64,000 nt of DNA from Oceanimonas aquatica (lineage in GTDB: Bacteria; Pseudomonadota; Gammaproteobacteria; Enterobacterales; Aeromonadaceae). The stretch is taken from contig NZ_JAVBHX010000003.1 of the NCBI RefSeq assembly GCF_030732065.1, positions 62,001 to 126,000 on the forward strand. The letters are read 5' to 3'. This document shows, piece after piece, positions 3,190 through 32,695 of this stretch. A program made the position numbers and the translations under genes. How positions within the stretch are numbered: the first letter of the stretch is position 1; every line of letters starts with the position of its first letter. The notes under the pieces were generated by a model, which saw only the letters and a program-made list of their open reading frames with translations, was not told where the DNA came from and ran no database searches.

Positions 3190-3350
3190 CCTGGTCATTC
3201 CAGTCCCCCGAGCCGAAATCCATTCTGCAGGCCACTGTGTCTCGTTCCCGCGCTTGGCGTGGGAATGCACATATAAATCATATTCCCCCTTTTCCTTTGC
3301 GTCTCGCTTGGGTAGCTTATTGGGCCTTTTCAAATTTTCAGGGATACAAG

Positions 3351-16551: not shown

Positions 16552-18252
16552 ATGGATATTCAAACCTGGACATTTATTCTGGTGGGGCTCAGCTTCGCTC
16601 TTTATATCGGTATTGCCATCTGGGCTCGGGCCGGCACCACCGGTGAATTTTACGTGGCCGGCGGTGGCGTGCACCCGGTGGCCAACGGCATGGCCACGGC
16701 GGCCGACTGGATGTCGGCGGCGTCCTTTATTTCCATGGCGGGCATCATTTCCTTTGCCGGCTACGACGGCAGTGTGTATCTGATGGGCTGGACCGGTGGC
16801 TATGTGCTGCTGGCGCTGTGCCTGGCGCCTTACCTGCGCAAGTTTGGCAAGTTTACCGTGCCGGACTTTATCGGTGATCGTTACTACTCCCAGACTGCGC
16901 GCATGGTAGCGGTATTCTGTGCCATCTTTGTGTCCTTCACCTATGTGGCGGGCCAGATGCGTGGTACCGGCGTGGTGTTTTCCCGCTTCCTGGAAGTGGA
17001 CATCGACGTGGGTGTGATCATCGGCATGGCCATCGTGTTCTTCTACGCGGTGCTCGGCGGAATGAAGGGCATCACCTACACCCAGGTGGCCCAGTACTGC
17101 GTGCTGATCTTCGCTTTCCTGGTACCGGCCATTTTTGTGTCTATTCTGGTGACCGGCAATGCCATTCCGCAGCTGGGCTTTATTGGCCAGACCACGGACG
17201 GCATGGAGCTGCTCGACAAGCTTGACGGCCTGTCTGAAGAGCTGGGCTTTACCGAATATACCTCGGGCAGCAAGTCGGGCATTGATGTGTTCTTCATCAC
17301 CGCCGCGCTCATGGTGGGTACCGCCGGTCTGCCTCACGTGATCATTCGTTTCTTCACCGTGCCCAAGGTGCGTGATGCCCGTATCTCTGCCGGCTGGGCG
17401 CTGCTGTTCATCTCCTTCCTGTATACCACAGCCCCCGCCGTGGCCGCCTTTGCTCGGGTCAACATGATTGACGGCCTCAACGGTGCCGACGGCAAGGGTG
17501 TGGTCGCCGAACAGGCCCCCGGTTGGGTCGCCAACTGGGAGAAAACCGGCCTGGTTACCTGGGAAGACAAGAACAACGACGGTCGCCTCTTCTATTCCGG
17601 TGACGAGCGCAACGAAATGACCATCAGCCCCGACATCATCGTGCTGGCCAGCCCCGAAATTGGCAAGCTGCCCAACTGGGTCGTGGCCCTGCTGGCGGCC
17701 GGCGGCATGGCGGCGGCGCTGTCGACTGCGGCGGGTCTGCTGCTGGTGATCTCCACCTCCATTGCGCACGATCTGCTGAAGAAAGGCTTGAAGCCCGACA
17801 TGACCGACAAGCAGGAGCTGCTGGCCGCGCGCATTGCCGCCGCCGTGGCGGTGATTGGGGCTGGTTACCTGGGGATTAACCCGCCCGGCTTTGTGGCGCA
17901 GGTGGTGGCCTTTGCCTTTGGTCTGGCAGCGGCGTCCTTCTTCCCGGCCATTGTTCTTGGTATTTTCTACAAGAAGATGAACAAGGAAGGCGCCATTGCC
18001 GGTATGGTGAGCGGTATTGCCTTTACCGCCAGCTACATCATTTACTTCAAGTTCATCAATCCGGCGGCCAGCACCCCTGAAAACTGGCTGTTCGGTATTT
18101 CTCCCGAAGGGATTGGTACCCTGGGTATGCTGGTGAACCTGGCGGTCTCGCTGATTGTGGCCAAAGTCACTACCGAAACTCCGCAGGAAGTACAGGACCT
18201 GGTGGAAAGCATTCGTTTTCCCAAGGGAGCCGGTGCCGCGCACAGCCATTGA
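16552..18252 (+). CDS. SSS-family sodium:solute symporter (ActP-like, DUF4212-associated)
   Basis: This 566-aa inner-membrane symporter has about 13 helices. SSS-family landmarks are EFYVAGGGVHPVANGMATAAD near the N terminus, MSAASFISMAGIISFAGYDG, and the GMAAALSTAAGLLLVISTSIAHD sodium-site helix. Relatives take up acetate, propionate or other monocarboxylates with Na+; the paired DUF4212 subunit places it in the ActP-like subgroup. A hydrophilic insertion (about residues 310-360) with EDKNNDGRLFYSGDERNEM looks like a periplasmic loop. A His-containing tail ends the protein. A strong terminator begins 22 bp after the stop, defining a two-gene operon. Confidence 0.9.
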   Translation: MDIQTWTFILVGLSFALYIGIAIWARAGTTGEFYVAGGGVHPVANGMATAADWMSAASFISMAGIISFAGYDGSVYLMGWTGGYVLLALCLAPYLRKFGKFTVPDFIGDRYYSQTARMVAVFCAIFVSFTYVAGQMRGTGVVFSRFLEVDIDVGVIIGMAIVFFYAVLGGMKGITYTQVAQYCVLIFAFLVPAIFVSILVTGNAIPQLGFIGQTTDGMELLDKLDGLSEELGFTEYTSGSKSGIDVFFITAALMVGTAGLPHVIIRFFTVPKVRDARISAGWALLFISFLYTTAPAVAAFARVNMIDGLNGADGKGVVAEQAPGWVANWEKTGLVTWEDKNNDGRLFYSGDERNEMTISPDIIVLASPEIGKLPNWVVALLAAGGMAAALSTAAGLLLVISTSIAHDLLKKGLKPDMTDKQELLAARIAAAVAVIGAGYLGINPPGFVAQVVAFAFGLAAASFFPAIVLGIFYKKMNKEGAIAGMVSGIAFTASYIIYFKFINPAASTPENWLFGISPEGIGTLGMLVNLAVSLIVAKVTTETPQEVQDLVESIRFPKGAGAAHSH

Positions 18253-18384: not shown

Positions 18385-19242
18385 ATGTTCAAATGGTTCA
18401 AATCTGCCCAGAGCAGCACGGCAGTGGGCATTTACCTCACTTCAAGTGCGCTCTATGCGGTGGAAGAGCAATATCCGCAGCAGGTGGTGGAGTACCCTCT
18501 GGCCAGTGGCGAGCAACCGGCCGAAGCTCTGACCGCCCTGATTGAAGCGCAACACTGGCAGGGCCGGCGGTTGCGGCTGGCGCTGGGACGGCAATATTAC
18601 CGTCAGGCGCAGCTCGACAAACCCGCCATGCCCGATGACGAGCTGGCCCAGGCCCTGCCCTGGTGCATGCGCGAGCTGGTGGACGAGCCGGTGGAGCAAT
18701 TGCTGTTTGACTATATTGACCTGCCCGCGGGCCCCCAGGGCACCGAGCGCATTGCCGTTTATTACAGCCGGCGGGCTCAACTGGCGGCCTTGGTCAAGGC
18801 GGTGTCGCCCCTGTGCGACATTGAGACCATGGGCGTGGATGAACTGGCCATGACCAACCTGCTGGCCCCGGACCAGCGCGGCCTGGTGCTGCACAAGGTG
18901 CCCGGCCAGGAGCTGACCATGACCTTTGTGCATCAGCGCCAGTGGCATTTTTCCCGAACCATTCGCGGCTTTCAGGCCCTGGACGACGACACCATGGCGG
19001 TGGATCAGTTCGTGTTTGACAACCTGCTGCTGGAGCTGCAGCGCAGCATCGACTACGCCACTGGTCAGCTCAGGCTCAATGCCCCCAACAAGTGGTTTCT
19101 GGCCCTGCCGGCCCGGGTGACAACGGCGGTGCAGACCGCCATTGGCCAGGTGTTTGATATTCAGCCCGAATCCCTCAGCAACGAACACCTGTCACCGGTC
19201 AGCCTGCCGGCCCTGGGCATGTTGCAGGAGGAAAGCCGGTGA
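18385..19242 (+). CDS. mshI: MSHA biogenesis protein MshI (PilM-like)
   Basis: This 285-aa cytoplasmic protein has an actin-like, PilM-type fold: an N-terminal GIYLTSSALYAVE strand and a later SIDYATGQLRLN segment typical of PilM/MshI. It should form the cytoplasmic platform that docks the PilN-like partner encoded next. It is the first gene of the overlapping assembly operon; the next start (GTG) overlaps its stop. AAAGGG precedes the ATG. The usual upstream gene mshH is not present: a symporter operon and terminator lie upstream instead. Confidence 0.85.
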   Translation: MFKWFKSAQSSTAVGIYLTSSALYAVEEQYPQQVVEYPLASGEQPAEALTALIEAQHWQGRRLRLALGRQYYRQAQLDKPAMPDDELAQALPWCMRELVDEPVEQLLFDYIDLPAGPQGTERIAVYYSRRAQLAALVKAVSPLCDIETMGVDELAMTNLLAPDQRGLVLHKVPGQELTMTFVHQRQWHFSRTIRGFQALDDDTMAVDQFVFDNLLLELQRSIDYATGQLRLNAPNKWFLALPARVTTAVQTAIGQVFDIQPESLSNEHLSPVSLPALGMLQEESR

Positions 19243-19817
19243 AAACACGCATCGAGTTTTATCAGGCCGCCCTCAAGCCGGTGCGGGATCTGCCCACCCT
19301 GCGCCAGTGTGGACTAGGGCTGGTGGCACTGGTGTTGCTGTGGGGCAGTGTGTTTGCCTGGCAACACCTGACCAACTATCAATTGCACGCCGCCAACCGC
19401 GGCCTGGAGCAGCAGCTTGCCGCTGCCCGGAACAATGTGGCGCAACTGCAACAAGGCCTGGCCCTGCTTAATCAGCGCCAGGACGATGGCGAGCGTCTGC
19501 GCCTGGAGCGGGACATTCGCACCCGCCGCCAGTTGCTGGGTCTGCTGAGTCAGGACGAGCTGGTGTCTTACGCCGACACCCTGGAAGATCTGGCCCGGGT
19601 GCCCTGGAGCAGAGTGTCGCTGACCGGCGTGCAGTTGCAGGGCCGCGCCATGACCCTGACCGGCGAAGCCAGCGATGCCGCCGCCGTGCCGGCCTGGATC
19701 CTGGGTTTTGACGGCCGCGAGAGCCTGGCCCGGCGGGAATTTGGCAAGCTGAACATACATCGCCGCGAGCCCGGCGGACTGTCGTTCAGCCTGCACAGTG
19801 AAGGAGTCACCCAATGA
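19239..19817 (+). CDS. PilN-like MSHA assembly protein
   Basis: This 192-aa bitopic protein has one helix (about residues 26-44), then a coiled coil (about 50-90) and a small periplasmic alpha/beta domain. Size, topology and position between MshI and MshJ identify it as the PilN equivalent of the alignment subcomplex; some genomes call it MshI2. A GTG start overlaps the mshI stop and has AGGAGG upstream. Its stop overlaps the mshJ ATG (ATGA). Confidence 0.8.
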   Translation: MKTRIEFYQAALKPVRDLPTLRQCGLGLVALVLLWGSVFAWQHLTNYQLHAANRGLEQQLAAARNNVAQLQQGLALLNQRQDDGERLRLERDIRTRRQLLGLLSQDELVSYADTLEDLARVPWSRVSLTGVQLQGRAMTLTGEASDAAAVPAWILGFDGRESLARREFGKLNIHRREPGGLSFSLHSEGVTQ

Positions 19818-20458
19818 AACAGCGGCTGATCCTGCTCAACGACCATTTTATGGCCCGGCCCAAACGCGAGCGCTGGCTGCTGGCGGTCGCCGGCTGGGCG
19901 CTGGCGGCCTGGCTGGGGCTGACCCTGTTTGAACAAACGCTGCAGGCCACCGGTGAACGTCTGAAGGCCGAGCAACAGCGCCTGGAACGGGAGCTGGCCG
20001 AGCAGCGCGGGCTGGCGGATGAGTTTAACCGGCGTATTGGCGAGCTCAAGGCCAGTGATCAAAGTCAGCGCATTCAGCGGCTCAACCGCCAGCTGGACCG
20101 GCTTAACCAGAATGTGGATCAGCGCATGCGCACCCTGGTGGGAGCGGAGCAGATGGCCGGACTGCTGCTGTCGGTGCTGGATCAGGGCAGTGGCCTGACC
20201 CTGCTGGGGCTTACCAACCTGCCGGCCGAGCCCATGGCGCAGAACCAGGAAGGCGGCCAGCGCCTGTATCGCCATGCCCTGGCGCTGGAGCTGTCCGGCA
20301 GCTACCTGCAGTTGCTGGACTACGCCAAAGGGCTGGAGCGGCTGAACGGGCGGATTTTCTGGCAAAGCCTGAGCTTTGAGCTGGACCAATATCCCACCGG
20401 CCATATTCGGCTGGAATTCTTTACCATCAGTCAACACAAGGAGCTGATCCGTGGTTAA
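19814..20458 (+). CDS. mshJ: MSHA biogenesis protein MshJ (PilO-like)
   Basis: This 214-aa bitopic inner-membrane protein has a helix at about residues 21-40, a long coiled coil (about 45-105) and a C-terminal ferredoxin-like region. This is PilO organisation. It should pair with the PilN-like protein to bridge the cytoplasmic platform and the secretin. AAGGAG lies upstream of the ATG. The final 8 nt overlap mshK. Confidence 0.85.
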   Translation: MKQRLILLNDHFMARPKRERWLLAVAGWALAAWLGLTLFEQTLQATGERLKAEQQRLERELAEQRGLADEFNRRIGELKASDQSQRIQRLNRQLDRLNQNVDQRMRTLVGAEQMAGLLLSVLDQGSGLTLLGLTNLPAEPMAQNQEGGQRLYRHALALELSGSYLQLLDYAKGLERLNGRIFWQSLSFELDQYPTGHIRLEFFTISQHKELIRG

Positions 20459-20777
20459 TGCCAGTGCCCTGGTTTTTACCCTGCTGAGTGCCACCAGCAG
20501 CTTGCAGGATCCCACCCGGCCCCTTGCGGGCCTGACCCCGCCGGCGGCCGGCTCAACCGAGCTGCATGCCCAGACGCCGGCTGAGCCCCGCCTGCAGGCC
20601 ATTTTCGGCGGTGGCCAGCCCAGCGCCATTCTCGACGGCCATCGCTATGTGCAGGGCGACACCATTGGTGGCTACCGGCTGTTGCGCATCACCAGCGAGC
20701 GGGTGGTGCTTGAAGGCCAGGGCAAGCGCCTGGTGCTGAGCCTGTTTCCCACTTTTGATAACGCGGATACTCAATGA
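20451..20777 (+). CDS. mshK: MSHA biogenesis protein MshK (PilP-like)
   Basis: This 108-aa small protein has a weak hydrophobic leader, the LQDPTRPL motif common to PilP/GspC-like pilot regions, and a compact beta domain containing LQAIFGGGQPSAILDG and VQGDTIGGYRLLRI. It is expected in the periplasm linking the inner-membrane complex to secretin MshL. The GTG start at 20451 overlaps mshJ by 8 nt. The stop overlaps the mshL ATG. Confidence 0.8.
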   Translation: MVNASALVFTLLSATSSLQDPTRPLAGLTPPAAGSTELHAQTPAEPRLQAIFGGGQPSAILDGHRYVQGDTIGGYRLLRITSERVVLEGQGKRLVLSLFPTFDNADTQ

Positions 20778-22366
20778 AACGGATGATACGACCTCTTACC
20801 CTGGCCCTCTTGTGTGCCGGCCTTGGCGCCTGTGTACATGCGCCCGATGGCACCCTGCCCAAGGACGCCCTCGACGAGGCCTTGCGGGCCACGCCCGATG
20901 CGGTGCCGGCAGCGGTAGAGCAGGAGCTGTTGAGTACGCGCCGCCCGGTAAGCGGCAGTCAGACTGCGCCGCTGCGCCGTTTCGATATTTCGGCCCGGGA
21001 TGTGGATGCGCGGGAGTTTTTTGCCGCCCTTGGCAGCCAGCACAAGGTCAGCATTGCGGTGCACCCGCAAGTGGCGGGCACCATTACCCTTAACCTGCGC
21101 CGGGTCACCTTGCCGGAGATCCTTGAGGCCATTTCCGGCCTTTACGGCTACGGCATTGAGCGCCGGGGCGGCGTGTATCAGGTGTTTCCCAACGGCGTGC
21201 GTACCCGCACCTTTAACGTCAACTACCTGATGCTCAGCCGCAACGGCCAGTCGCAAACCGCCATCAGCGGCAGCAGTCTGGCCACCGGCGAGGACGGCAA
21301 CGGCGAGGGCAGCGCCACCCGCATCAATACCGAGTCGAGCAACGATTTCTGGTCCGATCTGGAAAGCGCCCTCGGCCGGCTGATTGGCGATGACGAAGGC
21401 AGGGTAGTGGTCACCAATCCTCAGGCCGGCCTGGTAACCGTGCGGGCTGCCCCCGACGAGCTGGCCCTGGTGGATGACTTTCTCACCCGCGCCGAGCGCC
21501 AGCTCAAGCGTCAGGTGATCCTCGAAGCCCGCATTGTGGAAGTGGAGCTGAATGACGGTTATGAGCAGGGCATTGAGTGGAATAACCTGTCGGCCGACAG
21601 CCGAAAGGGTCAGATAGCCACAGGGGGTACCAGCCAGCCCTATCCGGGATTTTTAAGCCCCTTGGCTAATTTGCTGGGTGGCGGGGCCGTGTTTAATTAT
21701 ACCGACGGTAACTTTGAAGCCGTGGTTAACCTGTTACAGACACAAGGCGAGGTAAATACCCTGTCCAATCCGCGGGTGACCACCAGCAATAACCAGAAAG
21801 CCGTGATCAAGGTGGGCACCGATGAATACTTTGTGACCGACTTTTCACTGACCACCACCAATACCAGCGGTGTATCGGAAACGTCTCCCGACATTGAACT
21901 GAGTCCGTTTTTCTCGGGTATTTCGCTGGATGTGACTCCTCAGATCGCCGATGACAACCGCGTGTTGCTGCATATTCACCCGGCGGTGAGTGAGGTGGAA
22001 GATGCCAATAAAACCATTAATTTCGGCCAGGGTGAACTTCAGCTCCCTCTTGCCAGAAGTACGGTGCGGGAGTCGGATACAGTGGTGGAAGCCGCGTCCG
22101 GCGAGGTGATTATTATCGGCGGTCTGATGCAGGAAAAACAAATCCAGCAGGAAACCGCCGTGCCTCTGATAAGCCAGATCCCGGTGCTGGGCAACCTGTT
22201 CAAGAACCGCAACCTGGCCACTCAGAAGAGCGAGCTGGTGATCATGCTGCGCCCCGTGGTGGTGGCGGCCAATACCTGGGAAACCGAGCTGCAACGCTCC
22301 CGGGATTTGTTGGAAAAATGGTATCCGCCGTCCGCTCTTGATGCCTTGCACAGTGGCATTCGCTGA
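20774..22366 (+). CDS. mshL: MSHA outer-membrane secretin MshL
   Basis: This 530-aa secretin lipoprotein has a lipobox LGAC with lipidation Cys20, so it is anchored to the outer membrane. N-domains (about residues 60-245) include a STN-like segment. The secretin core (about residues 270-510) has the VNTLSNPRVTTSNNQKA block and ends with the conserved VIIIGGLMQ...PVLGNLF motif. It forms the multimeric pore for the pilus. The stop overlaps the next ATG (TGATG); mshM normally sits at this point but is absent. Confidence 0.95.
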   Translation: MKRMIRPLTLALLCAGLGACVHAPDGTLPKDALDEALRATPDAVPAAVEQELLSTRRPVSGSQTAPLRRFDISARDVDAREFFAALGSQHKVSIAVHPQVAGTITLNLRRVTLPEILEAISGLYGYGIERRGGVYQVFPNGVRTRTFNVNYLMLSRNGQSQTAISGSSLATGEDGNGEGSATRINTESSNDFWSDLESALGRLIGDDEGRVVVTNPQAGLVTVRAAPDELALVDDFLTRAERQLKRQVILEARIVEVELNDGYEQGIEWNNLSADSRKGQIATGGTSQPYPGFLSPLANLLGGGAVFNYTDGNFEAVVNLLQTQGEVNTLSNPRVTTSNNQKAVIKVGTDEYFVTDFSLTTTNTSGVSETSPDIELSPFFSGISLDVTPQIADDNRVLLHIHPAVSEVEDANKTINFGQGELQLPLARSTVRESDTVVEAASGEVIIIGGLMQEKQIQQETAVPLISQIPVLGNLFKNRNLATQKSELVIMLRPVVVAANTWETELQRSRDLLEKWYPPSALDALHSGIR

Positions 22367-23097
22367 TGAGAGTCGTTAGTGGGGTAATTTTGCTGGCGCT
22401 GTCTGGTACACCCGCGCTGGCCCAGAACGACAAACCCGACTGGCAGGATCCGGTGTGGGCCGAGGTAATGAGCACTCCGCCGGCGGCCAGCGAGCTGGCG
22501 ATTAGCGAGGTGGCCTACAGTCGGAGCGAACGTCTGGCAGAAAGCCAAAAGGCTGCCGATCTGGCTCTTGCTGCCGGCGACTGGGCCGGAGCCGAAGGCG
22601 CCCTGGCCGGGGTGCTGGCAGAATTTCCTGACGCTCATGACCTTCGCTTAAAGCTGGCATCACTCCAATATGGCCGGGGCGCGCTTAATGAGGCCAAACA
22701 TCTGCTGCAGCAGGGCATTGAACTGGCCCTGCAACAACCGGAGTTGCGCCTGACCCTGGCGCGCATTCTGGCCAGTGAAAACCGCCACGCCGCCACCTGG
22801 AAGGTACTGGACGGCGCCGAGCCGGCACTGGCTGAACACCTCGACTACTACGGTCTCAAGGCCGAGGCCGGCCGGCGTAGCGGCCGGTGTGATGCCGCCG
22901 TTTCTCTTTATCATCGCCTGCTGGCACAACAGGACAGCGGCCCCTGGTGGCTGGGCCTGGGCCTGTGTCAGCGGACCCTGGGGCGCGACTTTACCGCCGC
23001 CTTTGAGCAGGCCCGCGCCAGTGTGGATCTGGGCGTGGCCTCCTTGCAATTTGTGAACCAGCAACTGGAGCAACATGGCACAACGCAAACTCACTAA
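22366..23097 (+). CDS. mshN: MshN-like TPR protein with signal peptide
   Basis: This 243-aa protein has tetratricopeptide-like helical pairs (about residues 60-190, for example AGDWAGAEGALAGVLAEFPD). Position between mshL and mshE and the TPR C-terminal half identify it as MshN-like. Unlike most MshN proteins, which are longer and have a cytoplasmic N-terminal segment before the helix, this one opens directly with a signal-peptide-like stretch (MRVVSGVILLALSGTPALA-Q). It is therefore either periplasmic or a shortened form. It overlaps mshE by 23 nt. Confidence 0.7.
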   Translation: MRVVSGVILLALSGTPALAQNDKPDWQDPVWAEVMSTPPAASELAISEVAYSRSERLAESQKAADLALAAGDWAGAEGALAGVLAEFPDAHDLRLKLASLQYGRGALNEAKHLLQQGIELALQQPELRLTLARILASENRHAATWKVLDGAEPALAEHLDYYGLKAEAGRRSGRCDAAVSLYHRLLAQQDSGPWWLGLGLCQRTLGRDFTAAFEQARASVDLGVASLQFVNQQLEQHGTTQTH

Positions 23098-24772
23098 ACG
23101 TCTGGGCGAGCTGCTGATTGACCATGGCGTGATCAGCGAAGCCCAGCTGGAGACAGTACTGCAACGCCAGCGCCAGGAAGGTGGCCGCCTCGGGGCGGTG
23201 ATGGTGCAGATGGGCATACTCACCGAGCTGCAACTGCTGGGCTTTGTGGCCGAGCAGCTGGTGATCCCGCTGCTGGATCTCAATAAAATCGAGATAAAGC
23301 CCCAGGCGGTTAAACTGCTGTCGGAAGTGTACGCCCGGCGCTACCGGGCCCTGGTGATCGACGCCGACGATAACCAGGCCACGGTGGTGCTGGCCGACCC
23401 TGCCGATCTCGATACTCAGGACGCCATCAGCAATCTGCTGGCCCCCCGCGAGGTACACCTGGCGGTGGCGCCTCACAGCCAGATGCTGGCGCTGTACGAT
23501 CAGCTCTACCGGCGTACCGACGATATCGCCAACCTGGCCGGTCAGCTGTCGGAAGAGCACGCCCCCAGCCGCAGCGTAATTGACACCGCCGGGCTGGAAG
23601 ATAACGACGCCACGGTGGCGCGACTGCTCAACTCGCTGTTTGAAGATGCCCTGCAGGTGGGCGCCTCCGACATTCACATTGAGCCCGATAACAAGGTTAT
23701 TCGCCTGCGCATGCGGGTAGACGGCCTGCTGCAGGAAACCGAGCTGAAGGAAGTGGCCATTGCGCCGGCGCTGGTGTCGCGGCTCAAGCTGATGGCCGGG
23801 CTGGATATTTCCGAGCGGCGCCTGCCTCAGGATGGCCGCTTTGAGCTGAGTATCAAAAATAATCCGGTAGATGTGCGCATGGCCACCATGCCGGTGCAAT
23901 ATGGCGAGGCGGTGGTACTGCGACTGCTGGATCAGTCCGGCGGCACCCGCACCCTGGAGCAGGCCGGCATGGCACCGGCGCTGATGGCGTCGTTCCGGCG
24001 CAAGCTGGCCAGCCCCAATGGCATTATTCTGGTAACCGGCCCCACCGGCAGCGGCAAAACCACCACCCTGTATGGTGCGCTGTCCGAGCTCAATACCCCG
24101 GATCGCAAAATCATTACCGCCGAGGACCCGGTGGAATACCGGCTACCCCGGGTGAACCAGGTGCAGGTGAACAGCAAGGTGGGGCTCACCTTTGCCCGCA
24201 TTCTGCGCACCAGCCTGCGGCAGGACCCGGACGTGCTGCTGATCGGCGAAATGCGCGATCAGGAAACCGCCGAAATCGCCATGCGCGGCGCACTCACCGG
24301 CCACCTGGTGCTGTCTACCCTGCACACCAACGACGCCCCCAGCTCCGCGGTTCGGCTGATGGACATGGGTGTGCCCGGTTACCTGGTGGCCAGCACCCTG
24401 AAAGCCGTGCTGGCCCAGCGCCTGGTCCGTAAAATCTGTGACTACTGCAAGGTGCCGCACCAGCCCGACGAGGGCGAGCGCCAGTTTTTGATGCACCTGA
24501 ACCCTCAGGCCGAGCACGGTCAGTTTTATCGGGGCGAGGGCTGTGCCAGCTGCAACCACACCGGCTACAAGGGACGCATTGGCGTGTTTGAATGGCTGGA
24601 AGTCAACCAGGCCATGGCCGACGCCCTGCGCAAACAGCATATCGAGGCCTTTGAGGCGGAAGTGGCCAGCCAGCCCGGGTTTGTGACTCTGGCCCAGGCG
24701 GCACTGGAGCAGGCCCTGCAGGGCAATATTGCGGTGTCGGAAGTGCTGCGCCTGTCCGAGTGGGTGGACTGA
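23075..24772 (+). CDS. mshE: MSHA pilus extension ATPase MshE
   Basis: This 565-aa hexameric GspE/PilB-type ATPase powers pilus extension. The N terminus has two copies of the MshEN c-di-GMP-binding pattern: RLG at residues 9-11 and again at 38-40, each followed by the spaced G, hydrophobic, L and Q positions. The Walker A is GPTGSGKTTT (about residues 321-330), then Asp boxes (AEDPVEYRL), Walker B (VLLIGEMRDQETA) and His boxes (STLHTNDAPSS). A zinc-type tetracysteine is visible (CDYC ... CASC). Known MshE proteins are activated by c-di-GMP through this domain. Confidence 0.95.
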   Translation: MAQRKLTKRLGELLIDHGVISEAQLETVLQRQRQEGGRLGAVMVQMGILTELQLLGFVAEQLVIPLLDLNKIEIKPQAVKLLSEVYARRYRALVIDADDNQATVVLADPADLDTQDAISNLLAPREVHLAVAPHSQMLALYDQLYRRTDDIANLAGQLSEEHAPSRSVIDTAGLEDNDATVARLLNSLFEDALQVGASDIHIEPDNKVIRLRMRVDGLLQETELKEVAIAPALVSRLKLMAGLDISERRLPQDGRFELSIKNNPVDVRMATMPVQYGEAVVLRLLDQSGGTRTLEQAGMAPALMASFRRKLASPNGIILVTGPTGSGKTTTLYGALSELNTPDRKIITAEDPVEYRLPRVNQVQVNSKVGLTFARILRTSLRQDPDVLLIGEMRDQETAEIAMRGALTGHLVLSTLHTNDAPSSAVRLMDMGVPGYLVASTLKAVLAQRLVRKICDYCKVPHQPDEGERQFLMHLNPQAEHGQFYRGEGCASCNHTGYKGRIGVFEWLEVNQAMADALRKQHIEAFEAEVASQPGFVTLAQAALEQALQGNIAVSEVLRLSEWVD

Positions 24773-25995
24773 TGGCCTTTTACCAGTACAAGGCCCGGGA
24801 TCGTCAGGGCCAGCTCAGCGAGGGCCGCATGGAGGCCAGCTCGCCCGAAAGCGCCGCCGCCAGCCTGGCCCAGGCGGGGTTGATACCGGTGGAAATGAAG
24901 GAAGCCCGCTCTGGCACCAAAACCTGGCTGCAACTGCGTCAGTTCCTCAAGGGTGGCATCAAGCCCGAGGCACTGCTGATTTTAAGCCGCCAGTTTGCCT
25001 CACTCACCCGGGCCGGCATTCCCATTTTGCGCATTGTGGAAGGGCTGCGCGATACCACGGACGTGCGGGTACTGAAAGAAGCCCTCGATGAGGTTGCCCA
25101 GTCTCTCAATCAGGGCCAGACCCTGGCCAACGCCCTGGCGGCCCACCCGCATCTGTTCAACAGTTTGTTTGTGTCGCTGGTGGAAGTGGGGGAGAGCACC
25201 GGCCAGCTGGAGCAGGCGTTTTTGCAGCTGGCTCATTATTACCAGCTGGAGCTGGACACCCGCCGGCGCATCAAGGCCGCCATTCGTTACCCCATGTTCG
25301 TGACCATTGCCATGGTGGCGGCCATGACCATCATCAACCTTTATGTGATCCCGGCTTTCAGTGGCATTTTTGCCCGCCTGGGGGCGGAATTGCCCCCGAC
25401 TACCCGATTTCTGATTGGCAGCTCTTACTTTTTTACTCATTACTTTGGTCTGGTGGTGGCCGGCGGCCTGGCCCTCGCCGGCGGGTTCGCCTGGTATGTG
25501 CGCACGCCAACGGGCCGGCTGCGCTGGCACCATACCCTGCTGCGCATTCCCATTGTGGGGCCGCTGATCAAGCGCATTTTGTTGGCGCGCTTTTGTCGCA
25601 GTTTTGCCATGATGCTCTCCGCCGGTGTGCCCATTACCCGGGTGCTGCGCCTGGCGGGCAGTGCCACCGACAATGCCTTTCTGACCCAGGCCATTCACCG
25701 CATGGGCGAGGGGCTGACCTCCGGCGACAGCCTGTCGGCGGTGGCCGATAACAGCGGCGTGTTTACCCCCCTGATTTTGCAGATGTTCCGGGTAGGGGAA
25801 GAAACCGGCCGGGTGGATGAAATGGTGATGGAAGCGGGGCGTTTCTACGAAGAAGAGGTGGATTATGACATTGCCAACCTGTCGTCGCGCATTGAACCCA
25901 TTTTGATCACCGCCATTGCCGGCATGGTACTGGTGCTGGCGCTCGGCATATTCACCCCCATGTGGGACATGGTCAACATTGTAAAAGGCGGGTGA
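24772..25995 (+). CDS. mshG: MSHA inner-membrane platform protein MshG (PilC/GspF-like)
   Basis: This 407-aa polytopic protein of the GspF/PilC family has two homologous cytoplasmic domains, each starting with an ILSRQFASLTRAGIP- or RFCRSFAMMLSAGVP-type motif, and three transmembrane helices near residues 175-195, 222-242 and 380-400. It is the platform rotated by MshE. The ATG overlaps the mshE stop (TGATG); a GTG 12 nt upstream is not needed. Usual downstream gene mshF is missing; a 157-bp gap leads to the first pilin gene. Confidence 0.93.
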   Translation: MAFYQYKARDRQGQLSEGRMEASSPESAAASLAQAGLIPVEMKEARSGTKTWLQLRQFLKGGIKPEALLILSRQFASLTRAGIPILRIVEGLRDTTDVRVLKEALDEVAQSLNQGQTLANALAAHPHLFNSLFVSLVEVGESTGQLEQAFLQLAHYYQLELDTRRRIKAAIRYPMFVTIAMVAAMTIINLYVIPAFSGIFARLGAELPPTTRFLIGSSYFFTHYFGLVVAGGLALAGGFAWYVRTPTGRLRWHHTLLRIPIVGPLIKRILLARFCRSFAMMLSAGVPITRVLRLAGSATDNAFLTQAIHRMGEGLTSGDSLSAVADNSGVFTPLILQMFRVGEETGRVDEMVMEAGRFYEEEVDYDIANLSSRIEPILITAIAGMVLVLALGIFTPMWDMVNIVKGG

Positions 25996-26092
25996 GCCGG
26001 TTTTTTGCATGCATGAACGGTTTTTACACAAAAAAGGCTGGATTGAAACCGGCTCTATCAGTACCATTTATTACGATAATTAATTGAATTAG

Positions 26093-26120
26093 TTGAGTAA
26101 ATTTCTCAACCTTTCATAAC
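26093..26120 (+). promoter_or_regulatory. Candidate sigma-70 promoter for first pilin gene
   Basis: TTGAGT (26093-26098) and CATAAC (26115-26120) are separated by 16 bp in an AT-rich gap, 33 bp before the pilin ATG. An inverted repeat TTGAG/CTCAA overlaps it (26093-26109) and could be an operator. An independent promoter fits a highly expressed major pilin. Confidence 0.4.
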
Positions 26121-26152
26121 AGACTGGCAACACAAAAAAGCAAGGAAAAAAA

Positions 26153-26665
26153 ATGAAAAGAGCAGCGGGTTTTACCCTGATAGAACTGGTAATTGTTATC
26201 GTGATCCTCGGTATTCTGGGTGCGGTGGCCGCACCGCGGTTTATCAACCTGCAAGATGATGCCTATGGTGCGAATGTAAATGCGCTTAAAGGATCATTTA
26301 ACTCTGCGATGACACTTGGTAGTACTAAAGCTGTTTTGGCAGGAGTGGACCAAGAATCAGATGAAAGTGTTGATGTTGATGGTATTGGGAATGTGAAATT
26401 TGAATATGGTTTCCCCGAAGCGTCTAAAGACGGAATTCTGAAGCTGATTGACCTGACTGAAAACACTGACTACGCAGTTGTAACCACTGAATCTAATACA
26501 GAAGTATCCTATAACGTAATTATCTCGGGTGATGTTACCCCTCCTACCTTGCAGATTTTCCCTTCTGCAAGGTTTTCTAAGAGAGACACGTGCGGCCTAA
26601 CCTACACTGAAGCTTCAGGTGCTGGCAGCACGGCAGGAGTCGCAGCTACAACCAGCGATTGCTAA
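26153..26665 (+). CDS. mshA: MSHA-type major pilin (MshA-like)
   Basis: This 170-aa class IVa-type prepilin has a short leader MKRAAG, cleaved before FTLIELVIVIVILG; Glu5 of the mature protein is present. Two cysteines near the C terminus (DTC ... SDC) form the usual disulfide loop. It has its own promoter-sized upstream gap and terminator and a strong AAGGA ribosome site, as expected for the major pilin. In V. cholerae mshB precedes mshA, so assigning A or B between this gene and the next is uncertain. Its base composition is richer in A+T than the assembly genes. Confidence 0.75.
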   Translation: MKRAAGFTLIELVIVIVILGILGAVAAPRFINLQDDAYGANVNALKGSFNSAMTLGSTKAVLAGVDQESDESVDVDGIGNVKFEYGFPEASKDGILKLIDLTENTDYAVVTTESNTEVSYNVIISGDVTPPTLQIFPSARFSKRDTCGLTYTEASGAGSTAGVAATTSDC

Positions 26666-26778: not shown

Positions 26779-27318
26779 ATGTGTCTCTCAGCCGGATTTA
26801 CCCTTATCGAGCTGGTGCTGGTAATGGTCATCCTCGGTATTCTCGGGGCTACCGCCGCACCCCGCTTTCTGAATTTACAGCGTGATGCCTATATTGCCAA
26901 TCTCACTGCACTGGCCAACGCTATGAAAACCGCGACCACCCTGGCTCACACCAAAGCTATTATCGGCGGTTTCGACAAACTCGGCGCCGGCACTCATACC
27001 GATGCCAGTTTTAACCTGGTGGCGAGCCGTGTAGACGGAGGTGTCAGCTGGGTGCGGGGCTATCCCACCGCCGACGAATACGGCATTATTGCTCTGCTTA
27101 CCGGATCTGAAGGTTTTAAAAACGAAAAGGCCGGTGAAGTGCTCGACAGCGATAACTACGTAATTAAATACACCGATAGTGACGACAGTGGTCAGGCTGG
27201 AAAAAATCTGCATATCAAACCAAGGCAGCGCCAGGAACTTGATAACTGCAAAGTGACCTATACGGCGGCAACCAACAGCAAGCCGGCAAGTATAAAACTG
27301 AACACCAAGGGGTGCTGA
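26779..27318 (+). CDS. Second MSHA-type pilin (MshB/MshA-like)
   Basis: This 179-aa type IV prepilin has the leader MCLSAG before FTLIELVLVMVILG, with Glu5 present. The first 40 mature residues closely resemble the preceding pilin (APRFLNLQRDAYIANL), but the C-terminal domain differs. It has the paired cysteines (LDNCKVTY ... TKGC). It could be MshB or a second major-type subunit. AGGTG precedes the ATG. mshC follows after 4 bp, so it heads the minor-pilin operon. Confidence 0.8.
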   Translation: MCLSAGFTLIELVLVMVILGILGATAAPRFLNLQRDAYIANLTALANAMKTATTLAHTKAIIGGFDKLGAGTHTDASFNLVASRVDGGVSWVRGYPTADEYGIIALLTGSEGFKNEKAGEVLDSDNYVIKYTDSDDSGQAGKNLHIKPRQRQELDNCKVTYTAATNSKPASIKLNTKGC

Positions 27319-27322
27319 ATAT

Positions 27323-27862
27323 TTGAGCAAGCAGGGCGCTTTTACATTAATAGAAATGGTCGCAGTGCTGGTGCTGGTAGGCATACTGGCCGCCGTGGCC
27401 ATTCCGCGCCTGCCCGTTGGTGGTGATTTTGAAGGCTCCCTTCAGGCGCGCAATCTGGCGGGTTTACTGCGTCTGGCTCAGCTCAGAGCCATGAACGACC
27501 CTCAGGCGCTGCAGAGCACTGCACCTTTAGAACGCTGCGGTGTGATTGCGGTTACTACCAATGGGGTATCCATTTCCAGTAATTGCCAAAGCTCGAGTTT
27601 GCTGGAAGATATGACTAGTCTGGACCCCAACCTGTGGCTGGGTGTTGAACTACCGGTTAGTGCCAGTATCACTCTTCCATTTGTACTGCAATTTGGCGAA
27701 GTCGCCAGCGATACCAATTATCTCAGTGAATCCAGCCGCCTTGGCCGTCCCTTTGTAAATACTGGTACTGGCTATCAGTCGTTGGTAACTAGGCTGCAAA
27801 TCACCCTTGCCGGTAAAACCGTACTGATAGAACCCGAGGGATATATTCATGTTGCGCCGTAA
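27323..27862 (+). CDS. mshC: MSHA minor pilin MshC
   Basis: This 179-aa minor prepilin has the leader MSKQGA and then FTLIEMVAVLVLVG; the cleavage-site residue is Ala rather than the usual Gly, which is atypical. Glu5 is kept. A GspH-like globular domain follows. The TTG start at 27323 is the only in-frame start giving a normal leader, with AAGGGG upstream. The last 14 nt overlap mshD. Confidence 0.75.
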   Translation: MSKQGAFTLIEMVAVLVLVGILAAVAIPRLPVGGDFEGSLQARNLAGLLRLAQLRAMNDPQALQSTAPLERCGVIAVTTNGVSISSNCQSSSLLEDMTSLDPNLWLGVELPVSASITLPFVLQFGEVASDTNYLSESSRLGRPFVNTGTGYQSLVTRLQITLAGKTVLIEPEGYIHVAP

Positions 27863-28376
27863 TGCAGGGCTCAGCCTGCTGGAATATGTGGTAGGGCTGG
27901 CGGTGCTGGCCATTATCCTGGTGGGGGCGGGATTGTTTTTTTTAAGCCAGCCGCGACAGCTGGATCCGGTATTTCAGTTTCGCGCCGTGGCCCTGGCCGA
28001 AGCCTTGGCTGAGCAGGTGCTGGCGGTAAAATATGATGAAAAAAACAAGCCCGACGAACAGGAACGCTGCTCCACCGACTGCACCAAAGAGGAAGATTTC
28101 GGACCCGATGGCAGCGAAAGTGAACTAACTGACTTTGATGATGTAGATGACTTTCACCTCTGGTGCGGTGATGAAAATGCTATCTCTGGAGATGTGCTTG
28201 CAGGGGAAGAACAGCTTAATTTAAGCCATGCCACTTTGTATTCTCGTTACAAGATAAATACTTGTGTTGAAGAAAAAAGTGATGGCAGTGCTGATTACAA
28301 AAAAGTCATCATCACCATTGCGGATAAGAGCGGGAGCGACATTTCCTTTATTCTGCACAGGTACAACATACGATGA
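27849..28376 (+). CDS. mshD: MSHA minor pilin MshD
   Basis: This 175-aa minor prepilin has the leader MLRRNAG and then LSLLEYVVGLAVLAII. The first mature residue is Leu rather than Phe; Glu5 is present. The globular part is strongly acidic (a run rich in D and E about residues 75-110) with cysteine pairs. Order and size identify MshD, which is thought to prime pilus assembly at the tip. The stop overlaps mshO (ATGA). Confidence 0.75.
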   Translation: MLRRNAGLSLLEYVVGLAVLAIILVGAGLFFLSQPRQLDPVFQFRAVALAEALAEQVLAVKYDEKNKPDEQERCSTDCTKEEDFGPDGSESELTDFDDVDDFHLWCGDENAISGDVLAGEEQLNLSHATLYSRYKINTCVEEKSDGSADYKKVIITIADKSGSDISFILHRYNIR

Positions 28377-29128
28377 AGGCCCGTGGTTTTACCCTGCTGG
28401 AGCTGGTGATTGTGATGGTGCTGATTGGCATCAGTGCCGTATTCGGCACCGGTTTTATCGCTCAAATGGCTGAGAGTTACGTAGGGGGGGCAGAACGCGC
28501 TCAGGCCCTGGCCGGCGCCCGTTTTGCCATGGAACGCCTGCGCCGTGAACTGGCAGTTTCCTATGGGCCCAGCGTTTATATCAGTGACAGCAACCGCTGC
28601 CTTTCTTTTGTACCCGCCCTGGCTGCCGGCACCTATACCGGGATGGCCAAAAACAATCTGGCTACCTTTATCAAGCCCCTCAGTCTGAACAATACAAACA
28701 TCAAAAGCAGCTATATGGCCATTCGTGCCGACAGCGGAGAGATTGAATGGGGTGATTACCCGGCGATAGCCCCTGAAAATGTTTATCAGCTGGAGCAAGA
28801 GCCTACCGATAACAATTTTGTCGTGAGTAATATCTTTGATACTCCCGCTGATATTGACTTCAGACGTGAAGGACTGGGTCAGCGCTATACCTTGCTGAAA
28901 AATGAGCAGGTGCGCTATTGCCTGCGCAGCGGCGACCTTGAACGTGAAGTAAAAAGCCCCGGTAAAGACTGGGGAAAAACCAGCCTGATGGTGACCGGGA
29001 TCACAGGAGATACCGTCTTTCTGGGCTACGATTGGTCCAATCAATTGGTTCAGATGGAGCTGACCTTGAGCACGCGGGATGGTGATTTGGTACTGCCGGC
29101 ACAATTACAGGTGACTTATGCACCCTGA
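28373..29128 (+). CDS. mshO: MSHA minor pilin MshO (PilW-like)
   Basis: This 251-aa minor prepilin has the leader MKARG and then FTLLELVIVMVLIG with Glu5. The MERLRRELAVSYGPSVY segment after the N-terminal helix is typical of MshO/PilW proteins. Overlaps with both neighbours (4 nt with mshD, 11 nt with mshP) show translational coupling in the minor-pilin operon. Confidence 0.82.
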   Translation: MKARGFTLLELVIVMVLIGISAVFGTGFIAQMAESYVGGAERAQALAGARFAMERLRRELAVSYGPSVYISDSNRCLSFVPALAAGTYTGMAKNNLATFIKPLSLNNTNIKSSYMAIRADSGEIEWGDYPAIAPENVYQLEQEPTDNNFVVSNIFDTPADIDFRREGLGQRYTLLKNEQVRYCLRSGDLEREVKSPGKDWGKTSLMVTGITGDTVFLGYDWSNQLVQMELTLSTRDGDLVLPAQLQVTYAP

Positions 29129-29507
29129 GGTCTCACGCCAGCACGGCAGCATGCTGATCAGCGTGCTCTTTATCATGCTTATTCTGTCTGGCCTGATGGC
29201 AACCATGGTCACCCTCTCGGGGCAGAGCAGCCGCCAGCTGGTGTATGAAACCCTGGCCCTTCGAGCCCGGCTTGCGGCCGAAGCCGTACTGGAGCAACAA
29301 ATCTTTGCAACGCTCGATAATATTGACGCCGACATGGTAGTCACAAGTAGCGCTCCCGCCATCATTAACCAATGCCAGGCCCATGTTCAGGATCTGCAAA
29401 AGCCCAGCGGCGGCGCAGCAACCCAGGTAAAAATCATAACCACAGGTAACTGCTCCGGCAGCGGCCTGACTGTGGTCCGAAATATCGAAGTTGAGGTGAT
29501 TGAATGA
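29118..29507 (+). CDS. mshP: MSHA minor pilin-like protein MshP (PilX-like)
   Basis: This 129-aa protein has a hydrophobic N-terminal helix (MLISVLFIMLILSGLMATMV, about residues 12-31) after a short leader with QHGSML. Its prepilin site (G|SML) lacks the canonical Glu5, as is common for MshP/PilX. A short globular part contains two cysteines. It starts within mshO and overlaps mshQ by 4 nt. Confidence 0.72.
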   Translation: MHPEVSRQHGSMLISVLFIMLILSGLMATMVTLSGQSSRQLVYETLALRARLAAEAVLEQQIFATLDNIDADMVVTSSAPAIINQCQAHVQDLQKPSGGAATQVKIITTGNCSGSGLTVVRNIEVEVIE

Positions 29508-32500
29508 AAAAAGTGATAGCGCTGTCACTTATAGCCTTGCTGTCTTTGTCTTTCCATAGTTATGCTGGCAATAACGGCAATAACGGCAATAACGGCAATA
29601 ACGGCAATAACGGCAATAACGGCAATAACGGCAATAACGGCAATAACGGCAATAACGGCAATAATGACAGTCGCGCCTGCAATGAAGCGGGCGCCACAGA
29701 AGAGCTGTTTTGCTATGCTGCTCAAAGTCACAGTGAGTTAGGTGAAATAGAAATGGATGCGGGAGCTGAAATTTATGGCTCACGTAAAATGAGCGGCACC
29801 TTGGGTTATCTTGATTTCAAAAACAAGGATGACTCGCTGGATGGAAAGTGTGATGATAAAGACTGTCGGCTGAGTTATAAGTTGGGGAAGAAAGCTGAAT
29901 TATCGAGCTTTAATGGTAATGCAGTGCTATTTCCACGGGTATTTGAAAGTACAAGCTCTTCGCATGAAGTGGATTGTGATGAAGGTAATAAACGAGATTC
30001 TGCGTCATCTTATGAAAAAATCATTGTCAAAGATAAATGTAAATTCGAGATAATAAACTCTAATGGCGAATATAAAATAAAAAAAATAGAAGTGAAGGAC
30101 GGTGGGCAGATAACTTTTCCGGCAGGTGAGTACTGGATTGAAGAACTCGACGTTAGTGATGGCACTCTCATTCTAGAAGGTGAAACCCACTTTTATGTAA
30201 AAAATGATGTCGATATTGTCGAAGCTGGCAGTATCAATCATCTTCATATCTATGCACCTGATACGGACATCAAAATTGAAAAAACAGACTTCACCGGAAG
30301 TTTGCTTACCAATAAAAAGCTGGATATTGATGGCTTTTCTTCAAAGGTTCGAGGAAAAGTGTCTGCTGAGAAGCTTGAACTGGAAGGTTCACTCATCCTG
30401 GATGCGGGGAATTATTACTTCCATGAAGTTGAACTGAAAGACCAGGATGATGGCAACAAGGCTGCGGTACTTGAAGCTGCGGGCGCGGTAACGTTGCATG
30501 TCGGGGCTGAGCTGGAACTTGATGACAAAACAAGGCTAGGCAGCAGCAGCCAGCCCATCACTGTTTATGTGTATGGCATGAGTAATCGCTACCTCAGCGA
30601 TGACAATGATGACGACGATGGCGAAGAAGGCGAAGTGGAGCTGGATGAAGGTGCCAGGCTTTATGGCTCGGTGTATGTAAATGGCGAACTGGATTTGGAT
30701 AAAAATGCTGGCATTTACGGTGCGGTAAACGTTATTGATCTGGACATGGATGAAAATAGCTTTATCAATAATATCTCTCAAAATGCTTCTACGGGCCTGG
30801 TTCATCATTACGAATTGCACTTCAATAGCTGTAGTAAGCAGCTTACTGCCTATGCTTGTGTCAATGAAAGTTGCACTGAAAAATACACAGATAAGGCCAA
30901 GCTGCACGTTAAGGCTAATGGTTCCAATTTGGCGATTTTCAACAAAATTTACGGTAGTGAGTCCCAGTCGCTGAACAGAACACCGGGCTACCCCTTTACC
31001 ATGGTGGTGCAGAGCGACGGCCAGGGTGGCAACATGAATCCTGATACGGATAACCCTTTGGTATGTTATGTGAACGGTGAAAGAACCTGTACCGTATCAT
31101 CTTCCGTAACTAGCAGTAATAACGGCCCGCTGACCTTTGACGTTGATACCGCTTATGCGGGTGGCAAGGCGGCTATCTCTTTTAACGGTAATTGTCTCTC
31201 CGGTGGCAGTGAGGTTGACGTATTATTGAATTTTGACAGTAACGCCAGCTATGATGACGAAATCCCGGTGACATTATATAAAGCGGATGGCGGTATTATT
31301 GCCACCCTCAAGGCAGGAGAAAGCAAAAGACTAAGCTTGCCGGTGAGCGGTAGTACTTTGAGCTATCCCAATGCAGATCAGTTAACCCTGAGTGTTGAAC
31401 AAGCTCTCCCCGAAGGTGGATTCGATACTGCCATCACCGATAAGGTCGCCTTTGTACCCAGATATTGGCAAGTTCAAGAGAGTGTTGATTGCGGTGGCGC
31501 CAGCGGTTTTGACTATTCGAGCGATGCCGGCAGCTGTGCTGTACTAGCCGCAGCAGGTGAACAAATCGAACTCACAGTAGCGGCGCTCGACATTGATGAT
31601 CAGCCACTGTCATTGAACTGGCTCGCAGGTCGGACTTTAAATGGCATCCACGCGACCTTGGAAAATGAAGATCTTAATCAGCTAAAGGATTATGATCTGA
31701 ATGATGATGGTGCATCAAATTTGTATTCTTCCCACCTGTTTCCCAGTGATATTGTAGGGCGACTGGGCGTGACGGTTGATGCTTGGAAAGCCGACTATAT
31801 ACCAGAGGGTGATACTCCACTTATTACTGAAGGTCATAGTGCATATATCGGCCGTACCGTACCTGCGTCACTAGAGGTGATCAAAACTCAAAACGGTGAT
31901 ATTACGGGTAATATAGTTTATGCGGGTAGGCCTGGTATGAGCTTTGATACCCCCCCTTCCTTTACCGTAGTGGGGCTGGACACCGAGGGTAATAAATTGC
32001 CCAGTTACAGCGGCGAGTTTGCCGGTGGCCTTGACGGCAATATAGAGCTTGAGCTTGATCCATCATTTGATTATGACGAGCTGGAATGGAGTGTCAGCGA
32101 TAGCAGTAATGGTGAGCATGTAGTTACTGTTGATACCGACAATTTTGTCTTCATCAAGGACTCGCCGTTCCCGGAAACAGAACTCAATTTGCCGCTTGAG
32201 CTGACCATCAATGATCACGATGAAACTAAGGGAATTGATGATGCAAACACCACCTTGGCTCAAGAAAACGACACCCTGCGCTTCGGCTTTGTCACCCTGC
32301 TGGATACTGAAGTGAAAGTCGGCGAAGAAGGTAAGATGCTCAGTAAACTGCATTATTTCGGCAAGGATAAGTTTACTCTGGAGGAAGACAAGAGCACGGC
32401 TTATAGCCTTGCCAGCCCGGAACTTAAGCCTGAACAGCAGTTTGTCCTTGAGCCGGTACTCGATGAACTGAAGCTTGGCCTTGATAAGCTTGATGATAAG

Positions 32501-32695
32501 CCTGTCTTGAATGTTCCTCCCTATGAGCAGCAAAAGGAGAACATCAAAGTCACCATAGAAGGCCTGCCCGACTGGCTGAAACCGGTCGATAAAGACGACA
32601 AACTGACCAACCCCTCCGCCATGCTGGACATTCTCAACAATCCGCGACGGCGGGCCAGCGATCGCACCTTTAACCGGCGCGAGGTGACCCGCTGA
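29504..32695 (+). CDS. mshQ: MshQ-like large secreted protein with N-terminal Gly-Asn-Asn repeat
   Basis: This 1063-aa extracytoplasmic protein has a signal peptide (residues 1-21, ending SYA). It is followed by 11 Gly-Asn-Asn units (residues 22-54), then a long acidic beta-strand-rich region (about 60-430) with recurring blocks such as GARLYGSVYVNGELDLD and a D-rich stretch DDNDDDDGEEGE. The C-terminal half resembles the DUF6701 region of MshQ: FVPRYWQVQ, IGRTVPASLEV, RFGFVTLLDT and the ending WLKPV...NPSAML...FNRREV. MshQ is the last gene of MSHA loci and is thought to be a tip or surface adhesin component. AT-rich codons dominate residues 60-950. Confidence 0.75.
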   Translation: MKKVIALSLIALLSLSFHSYAGNNGNNGNNGNNGNNGNNGNNGNNGNNGNNGNNDSRACNEAGATEELFCYAAQSHSELGEIEMDAGAEIYGSRKMSGTLGYLDFKNKDDSLDGKCDDKDCRLSYKLGKKAELSSFNGNAVLFPRVFESTSSSHEVDCDEGNKRDSASSYEKIIVKDKCKFEIINSNGEYKIKKIEVKDGGQITFPAGEYWIEELDVSDGTLILEGETHFYVKNDVDIVEAGSINHLHIYAPDTDIKIEKTDFTGSLLTNKKLDIDGFSSKVRGKVSAEKLELEGSLILDAGNYYFHEVELKDQDDGNKAAVLEAAGAVTLHVGAELELDDKTRLGSSSQPITVYVYGMSNRYLSDDNDDDDGEEGEVELDEGARLYGSVYVNGELDLDKNAGIYGAVNVIDLDMDENSFINNISQNASTGLVHHYELHFNSCSKQLTAYACVNESCTEKYTDKAKLHVKANGSNLAIFNKIYGSESQSLNRTPGYPFTMVVQSDGQGGNMNPDTDNPLVCYVNGERTCTVSSSVTSSNNGPLTFDVDTAYAGGKAAISFNGNCLSGGSEVDVLLNFDSNASYDDEIPVTLYKADGGIIATLKAGESKRLSLPVSGSTLSYPNADQLTLSVEQALPEGGFDTAITDKVAFVPRYWQVQESVDCGGASGFDYSSDAGSCAVLAAAGEQIELTVAALDIDDQPLSLNWLAGRTLNGIHATLENEDLNQLKDYDLNDDGASNLYSSHLFPSDIVGRLGVTVDAWKADYIPEGDTPLITEGHSAYIGRTVPASLEVIKTQNGDITGNIVYAGRPGMSFDTPPSFTVVGLDTEGNKLPSYSGEFAGGLDGNIELELDPSFDYDELEWSVSDSSNGEHVVTVDTDNFVFIKDSPFPETELNLPLELTINDHDETKGIDDANTTLAQENDTLRFGFVTLLDTEVKVGEEGKMLSKLHYFGKDKFTLEEDKSTAYSLASPELKPEQQFVLEPVLDELKLGLDKLDDKPVLNVPPYEQQKENIKVTIEGLPDWLKPVDKDDKLTNPSAMLDILNNPRRRASDRTFNRREVTR
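29567..29665 (+). repeat. 9-bp tandem repeat (11 units) inside mshQ
   Basis: Eleven units of GGCAATAAC run head to tail, the last one ending in T. Each encodes Gly-Asn-Asn, so unit gain or loss keeps the reading frame. The array starts immediately after the predicted signal-peptide cleavage site. Confidence 0.97.

Follow-up and report, generated by a model that had tools for sequence, protein, structure and literature searches.

An MSHA pilus operon without mshM and with a short, putatively exported MshN in Oceanimonas and related genera

Genes at the locus

The DNA analysed here (the window) is a stretch of 64,000 nucleotides from Oceanimonas aquatica (contig NZ_JAVBHX010000003.1, positions 62,001 to 126,000) that carries an operon for a mannose-sensitive haemagglutinin (MSHA) pilus, a pilus of surface attachment. 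The operon is best read as an MSHA variant that lost the AAA+ ATPase MshM together with a segment of MshN that may have contacted MshM. All of its genes lie on the forward strand, and the gene order, overlaps and gaps described in the original prediction were reproduced from the open reading frames (ORFs) of the window. The assembly part begins with mshI (18385..19242), which has no Pfam or NCBIfam match and was named by blast and by its position before the PilN-like gene in relatives. The PilN-like gene (19239..19817; PF05137, 21.6 bits) and the PilO-like mshJ (19814..20458; PF04350, 21.5 bits) score just below the respective cut-offs of 22.8 and 22, and mshK (20451..20777) matches PF23893 at 29.3 bits (cut-off 27) and PF16537 (T2SSB) at 24.1, below the cut-off of 28.4. 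The secretin gene mshL (20774..22366) matches TIGR02519, the NCBIfam model for MshL, at 291.4 bits against a cut-off of 250.2. It is followed by a short form of mshN (22366..23097), with a putative signal peptide (22366–22422), a tetratricopeptide repeat (TPR) superhelix and no cytoplasmic motif, by the ATPase gene mshE (23075..24772; PF00437, PF05157 or MshEN domain, NF053729) and by the platform-protein gene mshG (24760..25995; PF00482). A 157-bp gap (25996..26152) then occupies the position of mshF in relatives.

Absence of mshM across the clade

The TGA of mshL and the ATG of mshN share one base (TGATG), so there is no room between them for mshM, as originally predicted, and this holds clade-wide (20/20). 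The window lies in G000:C18, and its genome falls in a clade of mostly marine bacteria formed by Oceanimonas, Oceanisphaera and Zobellella. Among the best 80 of 569 relatives, the closest named MshL proteins are those of Oceanimonas marisflavi (76%) and of Oceanisphaera and Zobellella species (67–73%), followed by an Aeromonadaceae metagenome-assembled genome (52%) and Aeromonas (46–50%). We sampled the clade with 23 genomes of the window's genus group (g1), 20 of which have MshL; these 20 loci (the window, L059, L060 and L063–L079) include eight that are the named ones, with identical mshL–mshE intervals. In the window and the 19 others, mshL overlaps mshN, no ORF lies between them and mshM is missing. 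Since every MshL-bearing genome of the clade shares this arrangement, it is not an assembly accident.

Outside the clade, mshM is present at all 136 distinct MSHA loci read; in the comparison of related genera that the original prediction called for, the mshM-less arrangement was seen in the clade alone. At Aeromonadaceae loci outside the clade, an MshM of ~295 residues lies between mshL and mshN (21/21). The named set, the 80 best relatives, has mshM at 72 loci, and the eight without it are exactly the eight Oceanimonas, Oceanisphaera and Zobellella loci. Sixty-two of these 80 entered the count, which omits the eight clade repeats, eight other repeats, and L103 and L154, where mshM is present and the fetched DNA shows no mshE. 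At the level of the order, 101 genomes outside the family matched MshL; the 40 that we fetched, which represent each of the 35 matching genera at least once, all have mshM. Beyond the order, 38 genomes matched MshE and 20 were fetched; seven of these lack MshL and are not MSHA, and the 13 MshL-bearing loci all have mshM. At one locus (L145), mshM is split into two ORFs in draft sequence.

A genome-wide search with an MshM alignment (E ≤ 1e-10) gave one match in 16 clade genomes and none in seven. Six of the latter have MshL: G054 (93% complete) and G010, G032, G038, G040 and G050 (99–100%). The sole match in the window genome lies on another contig and is GspA, an ATPase of the type II secretion system (T2SS). 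It is followed by GspB, with GspD on the same contig; the names GspA and GspB were assigned by sequence and by a T2SSB match. GspD itself (E ≤ 1e-80) occurs in 17 of the 23 genomes and, among the six without a GspA-family match, in G040 alone. An mshM elsewhere in the window genome is thereby ruled out. Among the titles and abstract openings listed from the open-licence PMC library, none reports that mshM is missing in these genera.

The N-terminus of MshN

The original prediction also held that MshN starts with a signal peptide in place of a cytoplasmic region, which proved to be its most informative point. Residues 1–19 of the window MshN read MRVVSGVILLALSGTPALA, with QN following, and by eye they resemble a type I signal peptide with no cysteine lipobox. 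At mshM-positive loci, MshN begins with MS[VAL]INxML(K/R)DL(E/D) or a variant of it (MSAINxALSEL in Vibrio), ~30–40 residues before a membrane helix. Clade MshN proteins have a signal-peptide-like start in place of this cytoplasmic motif (MSxINxMLKDLE) and membrane helix. Our scan required three features together, namely the motif in frame, a membrane helix and an ORF no shorter than 200 residues that ends at mshE; all three were found at 135 of 136 mshM-positive loci and at none of the 20 clade loci. The sole exception among the former, L043, has the motif and the helix in a frame that stops after 186 residues. A strict motif search in the clade turned up strings in L060 and L077 alone, and these are either internal or out of frame. 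A looser scan was unspecific: spurious strings gave matches at five of the 20 clade loci, the string picked in L104 was not the right one, and L145 and L180 went undetected. Retention of motif and helix in frame at 135 of 136 mshM-positive loci, across orders, indicates that this segment is constrained where mshM exists.

The longest MshN ORFs measure 243–325 residues in the clade and 378–452 at Aeromonas-group loci. In the predicted structure of the window MshN, a TPR superhelix is modelled with confidence over residues 53–242, and confidence is low before residue 50. A Foldseek search with this model returned TPR proteins, among them MamA as the top hit and PilW as the 25th, which is a match of fold only.

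MshF, MshB and MshH

The 157-bp gap had been judged too short for mshF, and this stands. Between mshG and the pilin gene, none of the eight clade loci inspected has an ORF of MshF size (148–173 residues in relatives). Of the 19 clade loci listed, 12 have a gap of 111–174 bp and seven one of 268–1502 bp, which in L071 is due to a split mshG. A profile built from five Aeromonadaceae MshF proteins, which recognises the MshF of Vibrio and Shewanella, gave no match below E 0.02 in the 23 clade genomes and none at E ≤ 10 in the window genome. As a control, it matched an ORF at 68 of the 80 named loci at E ≤ 10, most at 1e-9 or better, and none at the eight clade loci; L103, L134, L139 and L154 were missed too, and some weak matches (1e-4 to 1e-7, and 0.02 at L158) may be MshB. 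We reject an mshF hidden by divergence, given no credible match in the clade from a profile that finds most relatives' MshF. A larger mshB-like pilin was likewise absent from the clade loci inspected, mshB not having been searched genome-wide, and was not seen at the g3 locus L044 either. Separately, a genome of the Aeromonas group (g4) has an additional MSHA operon (L081, G022:C77), which is divergent, includes mshM and shows no separate mshF ORF; its upstream ORF (2593–3543) looks transposase-like.

The fate of mshH is different. Loss of mshH (csrD) is ruled out, since the gene was found in all 23 clade genomes, the match in G056 having one internal stop codon. The original reading of a symporter in the place of mshH is right in that a symporter is the upstream neighbour, but mshH was not lost. 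A reduced machine is likewise borne out in part: mshM and mshF were not found elsewhere and their absence is clade-wide, but mshH is retained. As to the other suggestion, a move of these functions to another place, nothing supports it for mshM and mshF, and for mshH it has to be inverted, because in the three genomes read it is mshH that sits at the site between ssb and mreB and the operon that moved or was replaced.

Location and origin of the operon

In the window genome, G023 and G050, we read the order uvrA, ssb, csrD (mshH), a pyridoxal phosphate (PLP) enzyme, mreB, mreC and rng, with no msh operon among them; the flanking genes were named by sequence. Relatives carry their msh operon at this site: it lies between csrD and mreB in the family member g2, before mreB in g3 and after csrD in g5, and in Aeromonas G019 it follows csrD and the PLP enzyme and precedes mreB. 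In the three clade genomes read, the operon has thus left its ancestral site. In the window, it is bordered on the left by a sodium:solute symporter gene (16552..18252, forward strand; PF00474), presumably ActP-like, which is preceded by a DUF4212 protein gene, and on the right by a PAS-GGDEF-EAL gene (32821..34599, forward strand; PF00990, PF00563). The two border genes adjoin each other in G046 (L257, G046:C6), with no msh genes between them. On the CsrD tree G046 groups with a close relative that bears the operon (G029), which suggests secondary loss of the operon in G046.

Either the resident operon moved and changed fast, or it was lost from the csrD–mreB site and a divergent, mshM-less MSHA operon was gained horizontally at the symporter–EAL site. 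Four observations favour the second course. First, the distance to Aeromonas in MshL and MshE is 1.41 changes per site for the clade against 0.62 for g5, an excess that CsrD does not match (1.63 against 1.83). Second, clade MshE shows no preference for Aeromonadaceae (56–59% identity, against 51–59% for other families), and clade MshL is merely 46% identical to that of g2. Third, the clade is monophyletic in MshL+MshE trees on a long stem (0.99), and free trees do not place it with Aeromonadaceae: in one it stands beside Vibrio at 82/66, and in the other it is placed by forks of 45–48. Fourth, the chromosomal location is new. Against replacement, a tree that unites the clade with g3, g4 and g5, g2 being left out, is not rejected (approximately unbiased test, p-AU 0.2), and these same groups have the nearest MshL (51–53%, against 43–48% for others). 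Moreover, no closer donor was found among the best 80 of 569 relatives or in the 217 + 370 genomes searched. We consider replacement, which would call for a donor outside the genomes sampled, possible, though on the doubtful side.

Comparison with known systems

The published model of the MSH pilus, in the part available to us, lists mshA, E, G, L and M as mandatory, with a minimum of mandatory genes required (MMGR) of 3 and a minimum of genes required (MGR) of 4 (PMC6668835). We read these values as at least three mandatory genes and four in all, and applied them by homology and position. The window has MshL, MshE and MshG, and an MshA-type pilin, and lacks mshM; mshA, E, G and L suffice for the quorum, and so the system still counts as MSH without mshM. 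A study that detected MSH by MacSyFinder in all its Oceanisphaera strains is silent on mshM in the passages available (PMC11943896). The clade operon shares with the MSHA loci of Vibrio cholerae, Aeromonas and Shewanella the order mshI-J-K-L-N-E-G with pilin and mshO-P-Q genes, the MshEN-type ATPase and the MshL secretin. It differs from them by the lack of mshM, mshF and any visible mshB-like pilin, an unlinked mshH, a short MshN with a putative signal peptide, another chromosomal site and a long stem branch.

MshM is a GspA-type AAA+ protein, which invites comparison with the GspA–GspB (ExeA–ExeB) pair of the T2SS. The GspB of the window genome starts with (M/V)SYILDALKQSERRR and a hydrophobic helix, resembling full-length MshN (MSVINQMLKDLEQR and a helix). 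Such a module is absent from clade MSHA, where neither a GspA-type AAA+ gene nor a transmembrane partner with the MSxI..L motif was found (0/20), although GspA and GspB are kept for the T2SS in the window genome. In the T2SS, motif and ATPase are less tightly paired. Among six genomes checked, GspA occurs with the GspB motif in G070 and G191 and without it in G184 and G154, and G173 and G235 have neither; a scan of 11 clade GspA loci showed the motif at five. Thirty further GspB loci (L278–L307) were left uncounted, as many had been read out of frame. The GspB motif is therefore no strict marker of GspA, as G184 and G154 show. G173 and G235 (L308, L309) have a GspB without the MSxI..L motif and no GspA-family match at E ≤ 1e-20.

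The T2SS of Dickeya and Klebsiella likewise lacks the AAA+ partner and retains the scaffold protein; there, the passages available to us propose that the pilotin GspS and a C-terminal extension of GspB compensate (PMC9239104). TadD, the pilotin of the secretin RcpA, is a TPR protein like MshN, but it is described in the part seen as a lipoprotein, and the window MshN appears to have no cysteine lipobox (PMC10499894). In MshL itself, Cys20 is invariant among 12 aligned sequences and reads as a putative lipobox cysteine. The motif LLxKWYP near the MshL C-terminus is also invariant among these 12, and by analogy with RcpA–TadD it is a candidate binding site for the TPR groove of MshN.

Proposed mechanism and alternatives

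Against two close relatives (G023 and G014), the ratio of nonsynonymous to synonymous substitution (dN/dS) from mshI to mshG is 0.05–0.39, lowest in mshE (0.05–0.06) and mshG (0.06–0.08), followed by mshL (0.08–0.10), with mshN at 0.20–0.26. The operon is thus under purifying selection, which speaks for its being functional, and we infer that the clade makes MSHA pili. We think it likely that the operon encodes a functional MSHA-type pilus, away from the csrD–mreB site and without MshM and MshF, whose MshN is exported as a soluble periplasmic TPR protein.

How such a pilus could do without MshM can be pictured as follows. The probable course in relatives is that MshM works on MshN by way of the N-terminal cytoplasmic segment (MSxINxMLKDLExR and the membrane helix), as ExeA does with ExeB; ExeA is reported to form its complex with ExeB only if it has its cytoplasmic ATPase domain (PMC4098917). 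In the clade, MshM and this segment would have been lost together as a module, and export by the signal peptide would make MshN a soluble periplasmic TPR protein. MshL assembly and outer-membrane targeting may then rest on the lipobox of MshL itself and on periplasmic MshN and MshK, without an ATP-driven assembly factor. Both the MshM–MshN contact and this MshL route are what we infer. Tentatively, and with somewhat less than even confidence, we propose that MshM and the N-terminus of MshN together make up a GspA/GspB-like docking module that the pilus can do without, that the clade is a natural deletion of this module plus MshF, and that MshN is now a free periplasmic secretin chaperone. If this is true, an MSHA pilus can be built without the MshM module and without MshF. 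MshM, MshQ and MshF are listed as MSHA components of unknown function in the part of the source available (PMC9815625). A clade that lacks two of the three, and whose MshN has changed to match, amounts to a natural experiment and gives a testable hint at the role of the poorly understood ATPase MshM: it predicts that MshM contacts MshN within its first ~60 residues, and a specific dispensability.

Four points weigh against our main explanation. Some GspA-type ATPases do without the GspB motif, which is absent in two of four checked GspA-bearing genomes. V. cholerae ΔmshM and ΔmshN mutants carry surface pili like the wild type, according to the part of the report seen (PMC4624765); loss is tolerable in principle, but MshM may do little for piliation and its loss need not require rewiring. 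Because mshM adjoins the 5' part of mshN, a single deletion could have taken both without any functional link. Finally, three of the 23 clade genomes lack MshL.

The second and third of these points support a rival explanation, in which one deletion took mshM along with the 5' end of mshN, MshN regained an export signal, and the event is uninformative on any MshM–MshN contact. The two genes are adjacent at the mshM-positive loci read, and V. cholerae is reported to make surface pili when either one is deleted (PMC4624765). Retention of motif and helix in frame at all but one of the mshM-positive loci, across orders, speaks against it, as does the joint absence of GspA and of the GspB motif in two f19 genomes, yet the weight of the latter is lessened by the adjacency of gspA and gspB and by the two genomes that lack the motif despite having GspA. 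We hold such a hitchhiking deletion to be possible, if rather doubtful. That GspA serves the MSHA system is very improbable: apart from GspA no close relative of MshM is left in the window genome, but six clade genomes (G010, G032, G038, G040, G050 and G054) have MshL and no GspA-family match at E ≤ 1e-10, and clade MshN lost the segment through which a GspA-type protein would be expected to act. Decay of the operon, to which the absence of MshL from three of the 23 genomes and the abutting border genes of G046 might point, has next to no likelihood given the low dN/dS of the assembly genes and their recognisable retention in 20 genomes.

The pilin and mshQ part

Downstream of the gap, two MshA-like pilin genes stand in tandem (26153..26665 and 26779..27318; both PF07963), the first matching pilins at the same place in relatives. 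The second was matched solely in L070, L075 and L077 among the matches listed. They are followed by genes for an mshC-like minor pilin (27323..27862; PF07963), an mshD-like minor pilin (27849..28376; PF07963 at 18.5, below the cut-off of 21.2) and mshO-like (28373..29128; PF07963), all three identified with the help of relatives' loci, then by mshP-like (29118..29507; no Pfam match) and the large mshQ-like gene (29504..32695), both named by position and blast. A perfect 9-bp tandem repeat (GGCAATAAC, 10.9 copies; 29567–29664) encodes an (N-G-N)n stretch near the MshQ N-terminus, possibly a length-variable tract. The G+C content of the mshI–mshG part equals that of the flanks (0.58–0.64), and that of the pilin–mshQ part is lower (0.43–0.53).
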